In this document: positions 34,405 through 41,886 of the stretch, in pieces
Numbering within the stretch: the stretch's first letter is position 1
Layout: each line of letters starts with the position of its first letter
Source of the DNA: Bdellovibrionales bacterium RIFCSPHIGHO2_01_FULL_40_29
Lineage (GTDB): Bacteria; Bdellovibrionota; Bdellovibrionia; Bdellovibrionales; Bdellovibrionaceae
DNA: 64,000 nt
Assembly (NCBI GenBank): GCA_001771815.1
Contig: MEPU01000004.1
Coordinates: forward strand, 496,001 to 560,000
Direction of reading: 5' to 3'
Notes under the pieces: model-generated
The model's database searches: none
What the model was told of the DNA's origin: nothing
Seen by the model: the letters and a program-made list of their open reading frames with translations, nothing else
Made by a program: the position numbers and the translations under genes

Positions 34405-36160
34405 TCATTCCTCGAGCCTCTTGAGCTAAAATAAATTCGGCATCACGTAAAAAATTTTCCTTTAGAAAATGAGAAATCTCTGGCTTTGAGTTTCTTCGTA
34501 TCAATGCGGACAGTTGAATCCACTGAGCATAAAACTTCAAATGATTTTGATTGAGAAAATCAATATGCTCTTTGACGTCAGCTAAGGGATCCACTTGTAC
34601 CTTTGTCAGCCCAACAAGCAAGTGATTCAAATCAGATTTAGGATCCAACTGTCCCGTTCGGCTCAGACTGATAATCTCACTTCGACGATTAAGCGCATAG
34701 TTCACTAATAATGATATCTGTTGAATCGATGCTGTGTCGTGAATACTGTTTTTACTTTTTTCAGCAAAATCAGATGCCGCACTCAATTGTGATGATTCCA
34801 AGTAATCATGAACTTGAAATAACATATCGTCCTGTGGATTTAAACCTTGCCGAACTAACAATTTATATTGCTCGAGGTCTTTCCATTGATAGGCAAATGG
34901 TGCCAATAATGTGGGCTTTTTAAACATCATGGCCAACTGCGTGGGTGTGCTCAAAAACTGTTTCCACGAAAGCCGAAATAAAACATCATTATTCTTTAAC
35001 TTCGCAAAAGCCATTTGAGCTAATAGCAGTTCTTTTTTATAATCAAATCGAATGGCAATATGACGATCAACCAATTTCTCAATATTGGGTAAAAATTTTG
35101 CTCGTTCTGTTTGACTCAAACCTTGCAAACACTGGACAGCACCAAAAATATAGCGACCTAAGTTTTCTTGTTGATATAGTTTTAAAAAGGCATCATGCGC
35201 GGCAAGATACTTACCTTTTCGAATATTTAAAATAGCTTCATTTTCATTAATTAAACTATCTGCAGGCTGTAAAGTTTTTGCCTTAACTATTTGATTTTGA
35301 GCCATTTCCAAATTATGTGTCTGCATATAAAACCAGAATCGAGACAAATGAATATTCACGCGGTCTGTGAGAGTTAAATTCCCCCCGGCTTCTACTTCAT
35401 CTAAATTTTTCATTTGGAATCCGAGAGTTTCTAAAAAAGGAAATAAATCAAGTACCACCACCAATTTTTTTTGCTGAACTGAAGGCGGCAATCTCGAGTA
35501 AAGCTCCACAGCTTGTTGTCCCAAACCTAAAAATTTTAATTTTTTAACTTCGGTTAAAATTTCAGTTTCCTGACGATGCTGATTGTATTTATGATAATAA
35601 AAGAACCCAGCCATAGTCATTACGGCAACCGCAGATAAACCAATGATAAGTGCACGAAACTGTCCTGAAAAAACCACAGCTTTCTTTTGAGCATGTGGAT
35701 CATGACTATAGACAAACTTTCCACCCTTTGAACCTAGGGAACTGGATCGAGTCATGGCTTCTTCTTTTTGAACCCGCAAAATAACATCATCGACTGTTTC
35801 TTTGACAACGGAAGCTTCCAGCGTTTGCAACGACACATCGGTGTACTGTTGAGGCACTGATCGCGTTTGCTGAACGGGTTCATCCATAGTTTTTGTTCCC
35901 GCTTGGCTGACACTATTCTGAATCGTTTTCGTAGAATCGCCACGCATTTCAATTTGCGCACGAACATCTTCAATAATTTTCTTAAACTGCTGATTTTCGC
36001 GCAAGTACAACCATCGCGTTTCTGTATCGCGAACTTCATCAATAATAGAAATTTGTTTTTTTAATAGTAAATCTTCAATTTGCTCGAAACTATAAGGCCC
36101 CAGAATTTTATTCTCTGATTTGATCAACCACTTTTTTTCATTTGAGATGGCTATCATCAT
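34397..36160 (-). CDS. GYF_2 domain membrane protein with long repeat-like periplasmic region
   Basis: The protein (587 aa) starts with a GYF_2 module (about 10-60, WLIKSENKILGPYSFEQIED). A disordered, Gln/Thr/Ser-rich linker with charged coil (70-160) and one transmembrane helix (about 169-188, ALIIGLSAVAVMTMAGFFYY) follow. The remaining 400 residues are alpha-helical and look like TPR-type solenoid repeats (LQPADSLINENEAILNIRKGKYLAAHD). So a cytoplasmic sensor head is tied to a periplasmic scaffold. Its ATG shares the final A of the purH stop (TGATG), which implies coupling. Confidence 0.8.
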   Translation of the reverse strand: MMIAISNEKKWLIKSENKILGPYSFEQIEDLLLKKQISIIDEVRDTETRWLYLRENQQFKKIIEDVRAQIEMRGDSTKTIQNSVSQAGTKTMDEPVQQTRSVPQQYTDVSLQTLEASVVKETVDDVILRVQKEEAMTRSSSLGSKGGKFVYSHDPHAQKKAVVFSGQFRALIIGLSAVAVMTMAGFFYYHKYNQHRQETEILTEVKKLKFLGLGQQAVELYSRLPPSVQQKKLVVVLDLFPFLETLGFQMKNLDEVEAGGNLTLTDRVNIHLSRFWFYMQTHNLEMAQNQIVKAKTLQPADSLINENEAILNIRKGKYLAAHDAFLKLYQQENLGRYIFGAVQCLQGLSQTERAKFLPNIEKLVDRHIAIRFDYKKELLLAQMAFAKLKNNDVLFRLSWKQFLSTPTQLAMMFKKPTLLAPFAYQWKDLEQYKLLVRQGLNPQDDMLFQVHDYLESSQLSAASDFAEKSKNSIHDTASIQQISLLVNYALNRRSEIISLSRTGQLDPKSDLNHLLVGLTKVQVDPLADVKEHIDFLNQNHLKFYAQWIQLSALIRRNSKPEISHFLKENFLRDAEFILAQEARGMID

Positions 36161-37695
36161 CAGTGCCTAAAATGTCTTTGTCGTGAAAAGACCATATTGA
36201 TCTTATTTTGGGTTGCCGCCTGAATAACTTCAGCATCACGGGTTGAACCTCCAGGCTGAAGAATCCATTTGATATTTTCACGAGCAATAATATCGATTGA
36301 ATCCGCAAAAGGAAAGAAAGCATCGCTGACCAAAACCACTTGATTGATGTCGATTTGAGCTGATTTTGAAAATTCAAGATAACGATTAAACGCCTGTTGA
36401 ACGGCATCAACTCGGTTTACTTGTCCCATTCCCAATCCAACTGTTTGACCTTTATAAACAATAGCAATCGCATTACTTTTTAAGTAAGCGCAAACTTTCT
36501 CTCCAAAAATCATATCAGCTTTAATTTGTTCCGATGGAGCTTGTCCGTGAATCTCCCACGCTGTGGATTCAAAATAATCACTAGACTGCTGCAAGACCCC
36601 ACCAAATACGGATTTTATTAGAAATGGTGTTTTTTCAAACTTGTGAAAATCCGGCCAACTGAGAACTCGCAGATTTTTTTTAGATTTTAAAAATTCTAGC
36701 GCTTCATGCGTAAAATCAGGAGCAATCAAGCATTCTAAAAAAAGCTCTTTGATCAACTGGCAACATTCTAAATCAACAGTTTTATTAAATGCCAATATTC
36801 CACCAAAAATACTTTTTGAATCTGATGCAATTGTTTTTCGCAGAGCTTCAGCAAGATTGATTCCCTGTGCGACAGCACAGGGGTTATTGTGTTTCACGGC
36901 AACGCAGGTCGGCGTTTCAAAGTGACGAACCAAACCAACCGATGCATCCAGATCAAGAATATTATTATAAGAAAGTTCTTTTCCTTGATGAAATTGAGTC
37001 GAAGCTAAACTGACCTCGCTCAGTGGATTCGCATACCAGGCCGCTTGCTGTTGCGAGTTTTCACCATAGCGCAGTGTTGATTTCTTTTTAAGAGGCAAAT
37101 TTAAATACTTTAATGAAGTGACCTCTGAGGCTAGTTTATTCACAATCATTGCATCATAGTACGATGTTAACGAGAAAACTTTAATAGCCAATTCTCGGCG
37201 ATCATTCACTGTTAAAGTAGCATTGAGAATTTTCTCTTGAACCCAACCGTAATCATCAGGATCACTAACCACAATCACAGATTGATAATTTTTTGCTGAA
37301 GATCGCAAAAAGCTAGGACCACCGATATCGATGTTTTCAATCAATTCTTCGGGTGTGCTATTGGGGTTGGTTGCTGCTTTTTCAAAAGGATACAGATTTC
37401 CCACCACCATATCAAATGCAGCCACCTGATGCTTTGCCAATTGCTCCATATGTTTTGCATTTGATTTATCAGCAAGTAAACCCATATGAACAAAGGGATG
37501 CAGAGTCTTTACTCGACCATCTAAAACTTCAGGAAAACCAGTCACTGCGCTGATGTCGGTAACTGAAATTTGATGACTCTCTAAAAACTTTAAAGTACCA
37601 CCTGTCGAAATGATCTCAAGACCATTTTCGACAAGGGGTTTTAGAAAATCTATCAACCCGGTTTTATCTGAAACACTAACTAATGCGCGTTTCAT
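36160..37695 (-). CDS. purH: Bifunctional AICAR transformylase / IMP cyclohydrolase
   Basis: The protein (511 aa) does the last two steps of purine synthesis. The N-terminal IMP cyclohydrolase (MGS-like) domain has ISTGGTLKFL and TGFPEVLDGRVKTLHP. The AICAR transformylase domain has the Lys-His catalytic pair in VAVKHNNPCAVA and the C-terminal text FPFADSIDIIA and QPGGSTRDAEVI. Full length and no damage seen. The start shares one base with the stop of the upstream MCE gene (TGATG). Confidence 0.97.
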   Translation of the reverse strand: MKRALVSVSDKTGLIDFLKPLVENGLEIISTGGTLKFLESHQISVTDISAVTGFPEVLDGRVKTLHPFVHMGLLADKSNAKHMEQLAKHQVAAFDMVVGNLYPFEKAATNPNSTPEELIENIDIGGPSFLRSSAKNYQSVIVVSDPDDYGWVQEKILNATLTVNDRRELAIKVFSLTSYYDAMIVNKLASEVTSLKYLNLPLKKKSTLRYGENSQQQAAWYANPLSEVSLASTQFHQGKELSYNNILDLDASVGLVRHFETPTCVAVKHNNPCAVAQGINLAEALRKTIASDSKSIFGGILAFNKTVDLECCQLIKELFLECLIAPDFTHEALEFLKSKKNLRVLSWPDFHKFEKTPFLIKSVFGGVLQQSSDYFESTAWEIHGQAPSEQIKADMIFGEKVCAYLKSNAIAIVYKGQTVGLGMGQVNRVDAVQQAFNRYLEFSKSAQIDINQVVLVSDAFFPFADSIDIIARENIKWILQPGGSTRDAEVIQAATQNKINMVFSRQRHFRH

Positions 37696-39068
37696 CAGAA
37701 GGGTGAACTCGTCAATAAGAGTTTAAGATCGTCGTTGGTCAAGAATAAACCAGCTCCGGCAAAAACGGACTGAGCATTTCGTTTATTAAAGGCATCGTTG
37801 TATCCGGCCATAATGTAAAAACCTGAAAAAACTTTATAATTTAAATATGTTCGTACTTGAACTTTTTCAAAATCAAAGGCCTCAACAGAGGCCGTTAACT
37901 TATCGTAAAACATGCGATAATCGATACCCAGACCACCTTTGTCTTCGATTAAACCGCCACGCAATGTCCAATTGAAAAAATTCTTTCCATACAGTGCTGT
38001 GATTTTTGTTCGACTATGAAATGTTTTTGTTTCGGTTATAAAAGACGAACCAGAGGTACCCGAAGTCTCAGTATCTGTAATTTCTACGACACCTGCAGGA
38101 TCAGTAATAATTCCTAAGTAGTAGTACCGATCCAAACCTGGTTGAATGGTGACACCAATTGCAGTTTTTGCAGCACCAACTTCATTCAAATAATACGAAT
38201 TAAAATCGATCCCAGTGGATACCTTGCTCGCAGAATCAACTAAACCACTGATTCCCTCGATGGCAGAAGACACATCTTCAGCCGTTTGCTCATCAGAAAT
38301 AAGTTTACCAATGGTGCCTTCACCATTATTAATCTTAGTCGTGATTTCATCAATATTTTTTAATGAGCTGTCGATACGAACCATGGCGTTCTTCCAGGTT
38401 TTTTTAAACCCTTTCTCGCTTTCATCATTCACTAATTCGTCCATTGTGCTGGTGATGTTGTGAACTTGATCAACGATCTCGCCAATTTGTTCTTTATTTT
38501 CACTGGTGACCTGCGCCAAATCACCTGAGAGTTTCTCAATATTTTTAACTATTCGCCCCAGGATATGTTTATCTGTTCCATCGTCAGAAACAGCTTCTTG
38601 AAGATTTTTAGCGACATCCTTAAGTGATGTCGCTAGCTCTCCAACTTGGCCGAGAACATCGTCCATCGAGCCACCATCTTTGACATTGAGGATTTGACCA
38701 TCACTTTCCAATTCAGGATCACCCAAAACTCCTGGAAAAATTTCGATATGCTTATCGCCAAGAATACCATTTGAACGCAGTTCAACCTGCGCGGAACGGG
38801 TCAGTGGCAAACTGGCTTGGATTGTAATATCGATTCGGGCCTGCCCGTCTTGAAGTTGAATTTCTTGAATAGCTCCGACAGGAATTCCCGCAGATTTAAT
38901 TGCTGATCCCTTTATCAATCCACTGGCATTGGGTAAAAGAAACCATGCTTTACGAGATCGTCCCATATAACTTGGATCATCACTGACTTGCATCGACATA
39001 AATGCAATGAGGCCACTGATTGCAACGACCAGAGCTCCCACTTTAAATTCTGCTAAACCTAATCCCAC
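37695..39068 (-). CDS. mlaD: MCE-domain protein (MlaD-like) with barrel-like C-terminal domain
   Basis: The protein (457 aa) has a membrane anchor (about 10-27) and one MCE domain (about 35-120, GLIKGSAIKSAGIPVGAIQEI), the lipid-binding subunit of the Mla system. A long helical coil follows (about 130-270, with heptad-like LATSLKDVAKNLQEAV and VDQVHNITSTMDELV). The last 170 residues are strand-rich (AAKTAIGVTIQPGL, FNWTLRGGLIED, TYLNYKVFSGFYIMAGYND) and end in LLLTSSPF with terminal Phe, like an outer-membrane barrel. Standard MlaD (about 180 aa) ends after the MCE domain. The start is GTG 39068, with AAGGA before it. Confidence 0.9.
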   Translation of the reverse strand: MGLGLAEFKVGALVVAISGLIAFMSMQVSDDPSYMGRSRKAWFLLPNASGLIKGSAIKSAGIPVGAIQEIQLQDGQARIDITIQASLPLTRSAQVELRSNGILGDKHIEIFPGVLGDPELESDGQILNVKDGGSMDDVLGQVGELATSLKDVAKNLQEAVSDDGTDKHILGRIVKNIEKLSGDLAQVTSENKEQIGEIVDQVHNITSTMDELVNDESEKGFKKTWKNAMVRIDSSLKNIDEITTKINNGEGTIGKLISDEQTAEDVSSAIEGISGLVDSASKVSTGIDFNSYYLNEVGAAKTAIGVTIQPGLDRYYYLGIITDPAGVVEITDTETSGTSGSSFITETKTFHSRTKITALYGKNFFNWTLRGGLIEDKGGLGIDYRMFYDKLTASVEAFDFEKVQVRTYLNYKVFSGFYIMAGYNDAFNKRNAQSVFAGAGLFLTNDDLKLLLTSSPF

Positions 39069-39095: not shown

Positions 39096-39878
39096 TTATT
39101 GGTGCTTGATTCCCTTATCCACAAATTTTCGCACAAGTTCGATATCAGTTTTATAAAAATCATCAGCTGTGCCCGAGAGCAGGACTCGACCAGCATCGAG
39201 CATCACTACAAAATCTGCGATTCGAAAAGCCGCATACAAGTCATGAGACACCATAATCGAAGTTGTTCCAGGTCGAGCCCGATGAGTACTAACAATCAAA
39301 TCATCAACCATTTCAGTAAGGATCGGATCTAATCCTGTTGTAGGTTCGTCATAAAGCAAAATCTCTGGATCTAAGGCCAAGGCCCGAGCCAATCCAGTTC
39401 GTTTCTGCATACCACCTGAAATTTGATTGGGTAATTTTCCAAAATGCTTAGGCTCTAAATTCACACCACTTAACTTTTTTTCCGCAATTTCTAAAACCTG
39501 GTCTTTTTTGAGATCGCGTCGATGCTCTTCAAGTGGAAAGCAGACATTTTCTAAAACAGTCATATCATCGAATAAAGCCGCACTTTGAAATAAAACTCCA
39601 TAATTGCATCGAAATAATGTCAGTGCATTATCATCCAAGGTACTCAAATCAGTTCCCAATATTTTCACTGATCCAGAAGTTGGCCTGAATAACCCCAACA
39701 TATGCTTTAAAAGAACACTTTTTCCGGTTCCAGAAAATCCGATGATTGCCGTAAGACTTCCCCGAGGAATTTTTAAGTCAATCCCCTTTAATATAAACTC
39801 TTTTCCATCAAAACTTTTCTTAAGTTGTGTGAGCTCGACTGCAAATTCACTTTTGTTTCTCGTCAAGTTATCCATCAT
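39096..39878 (-). CDS. mlaF: MlaF-type ABC ATPase for lipid transport
   Basis: The protein (260 aa) drives phospholipid transport with MlaE. Walker A is GFSGTGKSV, the signature ISGGMQKRTGLARAL is of the Mla type, Walker B is LLYDEPTTGLDP and the switch His is in VSHDL. An upstream start at 39950 is open, but ATG 39878 overlaps the mlaE stop by ATGA, and AGGGA lies upstream, so I use it. Confidence 0.93.
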   Translation of the reverse strand: MMDNLTRNKSEFAVELTQLKKSFDGKEFILKGIDLKIPRGSLTAIIGFSGTGKSVLLKHMLGLFRPTSGSVKILGTDLSTLDDNALTLFRCNYGVLFQSAALFDDMTVLENVCFPLEEHRRDLKKDQVLEIAEKKLSGVNLEPKHFGKLPNQISGGMQKRTGLARALALDPEILLYDEPTTGLDPILTEMVDDLIVSTHRARPGTTSIMVSHDLYAAFRIADFVVMLDAGRVLLSGTADDFYKTDIELVRKFVDKGIKHQ

Positions 39879-40717
39879 GAACCAATCCCTGTGACCAGAT
39901 AAAAAATACGAATCAAATTCATTAAGAAATAATCCAAAATAATAATACACACCATACTGACAACGACACCCTTATTGGTGGCTTCACCGACACCCTTTGC
40001 GCCACCACTGGTATTAAAGCCTTTATAGGTGCAAATCACAGCAAAGATAAATCCAAAAATCGCGGCCTTCACCAAACCTTCAGCAATATGTCGAAACTCC
40101 AAAGTGGATCTGATTTTTTCCATGAAAACAGCATGATCTAAATATAACAATTTAGTGCACAAAAACCACGAACCCACCATCGCCATAAAATCAAACAGGG
40201 CAGTCAATAGTGGCATCGTAATAACAGCCGCAACGATTCGTGGAGCGATTAAATATTGTTTCGTGTTCACACCCATGACATCCAAAGCATCCAGTTGTTC
40301 ATTCACTCGCATTGTTCCCAACCGAGCGGCCATGGCTCCCCCGGCCCGAGCGGCCACAATTAAACCCGTCAACACGGGACCAAGCTCTCGGGAAATTCCC
40401 AATGCTACCGTTGGACCAACTAAATTCACCGCATTAACCAGTTTAAATCCTAAATAAACCTGAAACGACAACGCCAGACCTGTGAAAATACTCGTCAACG
40501 TTATAATACCAACAGATTGATTTCCGATAAATTCTAAATGCTTAATAATTTCAGCAAAGCGATACGGTTTTGCAAAAAGTAAAACTGTACTTTCGTATCC
40601 AAAGACTGAAATTCTTCCAATCTCAGCAATAAATCCTAACGTTGAGTCCTTTAAAAAATAATAGACGCGATCGATTCCACCAGCAATTTTCTGAATAATT
40701 GGGCGCGACATACTCAT
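39875..40717 (-). CDS. mlaE: MlaE-type ABC permease
   Basis: The protein (280 aa) has about five to six hydrophobic segments and the MlaE family text: GPTVALGISRELGPVLTGLI, AARAGGAMAARLGTM and NEQLDALDVMGVN. It transfers phospholipid between the inner membrane and the MCE protein. It overlaps alr by ATGA upstream and mlaF by ATGA downstream. No MlaB or MlaC gene is present in this operon. Confidence 0.93.
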   Translation of the reverse strand: MSMSRPIIQKIAGGIDRVYYFLKDSTLGFIAEIGRISVFGYESTVLLFAKPYRFAEIIKHLEFIGNQSVGIITLTSIFTGLALSFQVYLGFKLVNAVNLVGPTVALGISRELGPVLTGLIVAARAGGAMAARLGTMRVNEQLDALDVMGVNTKQYLIAPRIVAAVITMPLLTALFDFMAMVGSWFLCTKLLYLDHAVFMEKIRSTLEFRHIAEGLVKAAIFGFIFAVICTYKGFNTSGGAKGVGEATNKGVVVSMVCIIILDYFLMNLIRIFYLVTGIGS

Positions 40718-41886
40718 AACTTTTTTAATCCTTTAAAATGGCGTGGCACACGCTCGCCAACCGAGGTCAATGTTTCCCATGTGATCGTCTGCGCAAGTTG
40801 GCTAACCTGTTCTGCGGAAAGCAGGTTGCCTTTTTCATTATAACCGAAAAAGACCACCTCTTCTTCGATCCATTTAAGCGGATCATCGTCACCAATAATA
40901 TCGGTCACATCGAGCATCAAAAAATCCATACAAATTCGACCAACAACCGGAGCCATTTTATCGGCAAACAAGGCCGCGCCTTTATTTGAAATCAAACGAT
41001 GGAACCCATCAGCATATCCGATGGGCACAACAGCTATTTTTGAATCGCGTTTTGCGACCCAACTGCATCCATACGAAACAGATTCACCCGACTTGATCGA
41101 ACGAATATTATTCACAACGGACTTCAACGTCATCACTGGTCGCAATGTCATTGCCGAAAAATTTCCAGCAGCCTGATAACCATACAGTGCAAGTCCAGGT
41201 CGAAATCCCCAGTTTTCACGATGCAAATAACGATGCTCTTTGTTCTGAATACTGACCTCTGCTAAACTGGCGATTCCACCTGAATTTAAAATATGTGAAT
41301 AGACATTCATTGATTTAAAATGCTCAACAACAGGCAAAAAAGCCTCGATTTGTTTCGCTGAAAAACCAATTTCAGAAATAGCGTCTTCTCCCTGAGCCAA
41401 ATGAGTGAGCACAGCCTTTAACTTCAACTTTTTCGAATTCTTAAAAAAAGTATGCAATTGCTCGCTTTGGTCCAAATCGAATCCCAATCGATTCATGCCT
41501 GTATTAAATTTCAAATGCACCTTCACCGGATCATCGGCAACACTTTCTAAAATTTGAAGTTGCTGCCATGTGCTCACCACAGGAGTCATTTGATACTCTA
41601 ATATTTTTTGAGCTCCATGCTTATCAAATCCACGGAATACCAAAATTTGTGATTTCAAACCAGAAGCACGAAGAAGTAAGCCTTCTTCAATGAGGCATAC
41701 TCCCAATGTGTCGGCACCTTCGTGCTCCAGTGTTTGCGCCACTTGGATGTCACCGTGTCCATACGCATTCGCTTTAACCATGGGACAAATAAATCGGTTG
41801 GAACCGGCAGTCTTTTTGATCTCATTCCAATTTGCAATGAGGTTCTCAACCGAAATTTCAGCAAAAGTTCGACGGTACATTTCCAT
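40714..41886 (-). CDS. alr: Alanine racemase
   Basis: The protein (390 aa) makes D-alanine for peptidoglycan. The PLP lysine motif MVKANAYGHGD lies at about 36-46. The second catalytic residue lies in the C-terminal barrel domain (SVSYGCSWVAKRDSKIAVVPIGYADG), and GRICMDFLMLD is present. Full length. It starts 10 bases after the degenerate GGDEF gene and overlaps mlaE by ATGA. Its presence in a lipid-transport operon gives a general cell-envelope theme. Confidence 0.95.
   Translation of the reverse strand: MEMYRRTFAEISVENLIANWNEIKKTAGSNRFICPMVKANAYGHGDIQVAQTLEHEGADTLGVCLIEEGLLLRASGLKSQILVFRGFDKHGAQKILEYQMTPVVSTWQQLQILESVADDPVKVHLKFNTGMNRLGFDLDQSEQLHTFFKNSKKLKLKAVLTHLAQGEDAISEIGFSAKQIEAFLPVVEHFKSMNVYSHILNSGGIASLAEVSIQNKEHRYLHRENWGFRPGLALYGYQAAGNFSAMTLRPVMTLKSVVNNIRSIKSGESVSYGCSWVAKRDSKIAVVPIGYADGFHRLISNKGAALFADKMAPVVGRICMDFLMLDVTDIIGDDDPLKWIEEEVVFFGYNEKGNLLSAEQVSQLAQTITWETLTSVGERVPRHFKGLKKL

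Follow-up and report, generated by a model that had tools for sequence, protein, structure and literature searches.

The window analyzed here, a 64,000-nucleotide stretch of contig MEPU01000004.1 from Bdellovibrionales bacterium RIFCSPHIGHO2_01_FULL_40_29, carries on its minus strand a 457-codon ORF running from a GTG at 39068 to a stop at 37695, referred to below as the long mlaD; the plus strand over the same interval is crowded with stop codons. In the order of transcription, the minus-strand genes are an ORF at 40714–41886 that we take by reading to be alanine-racemase-like (alr-like), mlaE, mlaF, the long mlaD, and an ORF at 36160–37695, presumably purH-like by the same kind of reading (Table 1). 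The mlaF ORF had MlaF as its top NCBIfam match (E 5.6e-47, under the cut-off of that model). Its listed GTG start sits inside mlaE, giving a 76-base overlap (39875–39950), and the true mlaF start is probably an ATG further downstream.

Table 1. Genes and protein features of the long mlaD locus; positions are those of the window.
Feature	Residues	Position	Strand	Basis
mlaE, permease		39875..40717	-	PF02405 E 5.4e-72; TIGR00056 above cut-off
mlaF, ABC ATPase		39096..39950	-	PF00005 E 3.6e-32
long MlaD, 457-aa MCE protein with C-terminal barrel		37695..39068	-	ORF, Pfam, AlphaFold model
N-terminal inner-membrane anchor helix (predicted)	6-30	38979..39053	-	AlphaFold; hydrophobic by reading
MCE domain	38-130	38679..38957	-	PF02470 and structure match
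amphipathic helical stretch, thought to span the periplasm	135-280	38229..38666	-	AlphaFold, low per-residue confidence (about 36-46)
ten-stranded beta-barrel domain (predicted)	284-444	37737..38219	-	AlphaFold, fold matches, strand alternation
conserved terminal helix following the barrel	445-454	37707..37736	-	tail model, alignment

The earlier note had read an MCE protein in this frame, and the ORF proved real: it contains a PF02470 domain and has relatives across the phylum, the named ones coming from metagenome-assembled records of Bdellovibrio and Pseudobdellovibrio. Of 290 genomes drawn from the phylum, 270 contained a match to the long MlaD and 239 a match to the profile of its barrel tail alone, so the frame is not a chance ORF; within its own family, the barrel was present in all 51 genomes (counted by eye). 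The gene order is also maintained. Across the 28 loci compared (two of which, L012 and L045, are one place), mlaE and mlaF lie immediately upstream of the long mlaD in 27, the sole exception (L011) being a sequence that begins just ahead of mlaD. An alr-like neighbor accompanies the set in 25 and a purH-like neighbor in 19 of these loci. No relative of the long MlaD was found in the viral contigs scanned, and a plasmid scan returned four weak actinobacterial matches that reached at most a few barrel strands (query ends 297, 254, 211 and 211).

An AlphaFold model built on a 53-row alignment places, with the boundaries given in Table 1, an N-terminal helix, the MCE strands, a long run of helices, a strand-rich region and a short final helix, in agreement with the earlier reading of an MCE domain followed by a helical coil and a strand-rich final 170 residues. 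The anchor helix was modelled with a pLDDT of 85 over residues 11–20. The Pfam match to PF02470 covers residues 43–113 (E 1.1e-14), and the nearest solved fold to the MCE domain is the core domain of E. coli MlaD (5uw8_D; Z 17.2 at an rmsd of 1.5 over 97 residues). This is the only PF02470 stretch in the chain, which has one predicted transmembrane helix and one MCE domain and differs from the multi-MCE bridges of the LetB/PqiB type. Among PDB sequences, the best match of the long MlaD was the Mycobacterium smegmatis Mce1 complex (8fed, E 2.1e-9 over residues 37–271), in which the MCE domain is likewise followed by long helices; unlike the long MlaD, with its own predicted ten-stranded barrel in each chain, Mce1 is described as a heterohexamer in which each chain contributes one strand to a small barrel (PMC10665443).

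The helical stretch was modelled at low confidence, and its sequence is strongly amphipathic (none of 1000 shuffles was as strong). Its length is tightly held, with a median of 146 residues, a range of 141–159, and 50 of the 53 aligned sequences within 5 residues of 146. If fully helical, at 1.5 A per residue, it would extend for ~22 nm; the corresponding span of Veillonella parvula MlaD was modelled at 23.5 nm (PMC10665443). The constrained length and amphipathicity fit a periplasm-spanning tunnel, with the hexamer and the tunnel itself inferred from other MCE proteins.

We then considered whether the strand-rich tail is a membrane barrel or a soluble domain. Folded alone on a 36-row alignment, it gave a mean pLDDT of 87.4 and a pTM of 0.76. 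The tail model lists 12 strands, which we count as ten, taking the lower-confidence hairpin 328–349 as an extension of strands 3 and 4. The earlier note had named a model with a soluble beta domain as an outcome that would refute its reading; what the model predicts is a ten-stranded barrel that most resembles barrels of the outer membrane or designed transmembrane ones. With the tail alone as query, VIA-align placed OpcA at the top (Z 16.8, rmsd of 4.6 across 152 residues) and aligned the designed ten-stranded transmembrane barrel 8uzl with a Z of 15.7 (2.3 A over 131 residues), whereas soluble ten-stranded barrels scored lower (BFA1, Z 13.0; DUF3598, Z 12.6). Among the 50 matches listed by Foldseek for the same query, 47 are named as outer-membrane or designed transmembrane barrels, one was a soluble protein (Ycf58, rank 35) and two were chains from larger complexes; nothing reached E <= 0.001, the best match having an E of 0.0012. 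A comparison using the whole model, limited to residues 282–445, also placed membrane barrels above soluble ones. At the sequence level, the barrel profile matched no PDB sequence below E 0.9, and its 36 members matched no Pfam family below E 0.02.

The strands of the tail alternate between a polar and a hydrophobic face, a pattern that 0 of 2000 shuffles equalled in strength over the set and that is clear in all ten strands except the third (314–323). Because the MCE strands of the same protein alternate likewise (2 of 2000 shuffles as strong), alternation alone is no proof of a membrane barrel. Six near-constant charges lie on the polar face away from the strand ends (D288, K355, R370, D383, E396 and R406). 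Across 33 non-redundant sequences, the two faces of the tail did not differ significantly in conservation (polar 1.44 vs. hydrophobic 1.57 bits, difference -0.13, permutation 0.42), and in the MCE domain of the same sequences the hydrophobic face was the more conserved (1.33 against 1.90 bits, P 0.011), a contrast that shrinks once strand ends are trimmed. Short of proof, these observations lean toward a barrel that is polar inside and faces lipid on its outer surface. A very unlikely alternative is that the tail is a lipid-binding periplasmic domain, a soluble ten-stranded barrel of the lipocalin kind that acts as a built-in MlaC: soluble ten-stranded barrels do align at Z 10–13, and face alternation by itself cannot separate inside from outside, but membrane barrels come out ahead in every structural comparison of the tail, the conserved polar-face charges are easier to reconcile with a polar core that is buried than with a solvent-exposed surface, and the isolated Veillonella barrel fractionated with outer-membrane markers (PMC10665443). 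The fold matches thus support, computationally, the prediction of an outer-membrane barrel.

The earlier note had also pointed to a terminal Phe. The residue is indeed there, in 39 of the 53 aligned sequences with this one included, but it does not serve as a barrel signal: the strands run only to residue 444 and a helix (LTNDDLKLLL) follows, which leaves the Phe outside the barrel. An aromatic-x-Gly-x-x-hydrophobic-x-hydrophobic run at 436–443, which we take to resemble the usual barrel signal motif, lies 14 residues short of the protein end. G440 and D447 are invariant in all 53 sequences, and the terminal helix is nearly as constant.

The claim that MlaC and the outer-membrane partner are not encoded nearby holds genome-wide. 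In the host genome, which is 99.99% complete, no MlaC match exceeded the curated cut-off (best E 0.69), no MlaA match was found at E <= 1, and the PqiC family (PF03886) gave no match. The genome has two PF02470 matches, each in its own ORF and each with a single MCE domain, and two MlaE matches, as well as one TamB and two Omp85 proteins. The TamB ORF (1382 aa) adjoins an Omp85 protein (contig C4, 208975–212825), and the two are likely a TamAB pair.

The absence of MlaA extends to the whole phylum draw (0 of 290 genomes), in which E. coli and Caulobacter controls were positive for both MlaA and MlaC. MlaC (PF05494) matched in 56 of the 290 genomes, 53 of them over the cut-off, and in the own family in one of the 51 genomes, below the cut-off. 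MlaC matches occur in 27 of the 51 genomes that lack a barrel match and in 29 of the 239 that have one (overlap counted by eye); since these counts ignore genome relatedness, we draw from them no claim that the barrel replaces MlaC. Around the MlaC genes, no relative of MlaD or MlaE was found at E 1e-4 in any of 12 loci, some of which are stretches of only 4.6–6 kb. One such gene (locus L068, 4970–5542) lies between ORFs that read as TolC-like and MMPL/RND-like. The genomic surroundings suggest that MlaC-family proteins in this MlaA-free phylum may serve another lipid pathway. A hidden MlaC partner for the long MlaD was rejected, with no match over the cut-off in the genome and no nearby MlaD or MlaE in the 12 MlaC loci examined.

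We compared the locus with described Mla systems. As in E. coli MlaFEDB, an MCE protein of the MlaD fold is encoded with MlaE and MlaF; unlike in E. coli, where MlaD has 183 residues and lacks a helical bridge or barrel (PMC10665443), and where MlaC and MlaA complete the pathway, MlaA was not found here and MlaC gave nothing over the cut-off. The locus does not fit the six-component E. coli-type system, which has MlaA and MlaC partners and a short MlaD. The closest counterpart is V. parvula MlaD, for which Grasekamp et al. (2023) reported the same domain order, a ten-stranded barrel and an MlaEFD system that lacks both MlaA and MlaC (PMC10665443). Compared by description, both proteins have a transmembrane helix, a single MCE domain, ~150 helical residues (here 135–280, at the low model confidence given above) and a C-terminal ten-stranded barrel, which here is a feature of the predicted model; both are encoded with mlaE and mlaF in genomes missing MlaA, with MlaC missing there and without a match over the cut-off here. 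They differ in length (457 residues here, 419 there) and in phylum, and in the conserved short helix that follows the last strand here; some barrel-bearing MlaD proteins carry a helical extension (PMC10665443). The Bdellovibrionales genome, in addition, has a second, barrel-less mlaEFD set.

The membrane-type barrel of the tail model and a genome without MlaA or a credible MlaC support the interpretation of the earlier note, in which one chain spans the periplasm and replaces MlaC and the outer-membrane partner. We consider it probable that the long MlaD is a Veillonella-type transenvelope lipid bridge with an outer-membrane barrel, standing in for both proteins. Its partners would be the permease MlaE and the ATPase MlaF, whose genes lie upstream; its N-terminal helix would hold it in the inner membrane, and its MCE domains would form a hexameric ring on MlaE, by analogy with other MCE complexes. 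The amphipathic stretch of 146 residues would then cross the periplasm, six copies probably enclosing a tunnel with a greasy lumen, and BAM would insert the C-terminal barrel, securing the distal end of the chain in the outer membrane. Through this tunnel phospholipid would pass, most likely from the outer to the inner membrane, with TamAB moving lipid in the opposite direction, and the single chain would in this way substitute for MlaC and MlaA. Weighing against this reading are the 29 genomes of the draw with both MlaC and the barrel, the low model confidence of the helical stretch, the alignment of soluble barrels to the tail, the Foldseek matches short of E 0.001, the non-significant face comparison and the doubts of the Veillonella authors given below.

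The direction of flow cannot be read from the sequence, and the direction of Mla transport in general is debated (PMC6365058, PMC7500953, PMC10212509). Export of phospholipid to the outer membrane nevertheless appears unlikely, as the Veillonella genetics favor retrieval with TamB opposing it (PMC10665443), and TamB is found in this genome. What the barrel contributes to the bridge was left open by the Veillonella authors, who considered it too narrow for phospholipid passage and a ring of six barrels improbable, and in whose survey long MlaD proteins without a barrel were common (PMC10665443). The narrowness of the barrel and the barrel-less proteins favor a possible, though on balance doubtful, arrangement in which the barrel is an anchor only and lipid enters or leaves through a separate outer-membrane protein beside the helix tips; against it, the operon offers no candidate for such a partner, its recurrent neighbors being alr-like and purH-like. 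A more speculative proposal, which we regard as quite improbable, is that in Bdellovibrionota-type bacteria the barrel is more than an anchor and works as the outer-membrane end of the conduit for lipid, the terminal helix being a gate or docking element between the barrel and the helix tunnel. If it were true, a whole phylum could keep up its outer membrane with no MlaA at all.

The architecture itself is already known from V. parvula, where it was described and fractionated, and the Veillonella authors inferred the barrel in 103 MlaD sequences from diderm Terrabacteria and some Proteobacteria and related phyla (PMC10665443). The main text of that report does not name Bdellovibrio, and its supplement may list the phylum; among the papers listed in our literature search, no title concerned a Bdellovibrio MlaD and none combined Bdellovibrio, MlaD and MCE. 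Our analysis adds that the protein is widespread in this phylum, that MlaA was not found in the genomes sampled there, that the bridge is of conserved length and that a constant helix follows the barrel. The minimal one-chain transenvelope Mla design would thereby extend to a phylum with predatory members, and comparing such bacteria with Veillonella could reveal the roles of the barrel and of the terminal helix.

The second MCE set of the same genome (locus L065 on contig C6, 3292–6126) comprises, in this order, a 186-aa ORF, MlaE2, MlaF2 and a barrel-less MlaD2 of 255 aa. The 186-aa ORF had no Pfam match and begins like a lipoprotein (an LVSC lipobox by reading); in a genome with neither MlaA nor a credible MlaC, this small putative lipoprotein is a candidate outer-membrane partner of the second set.
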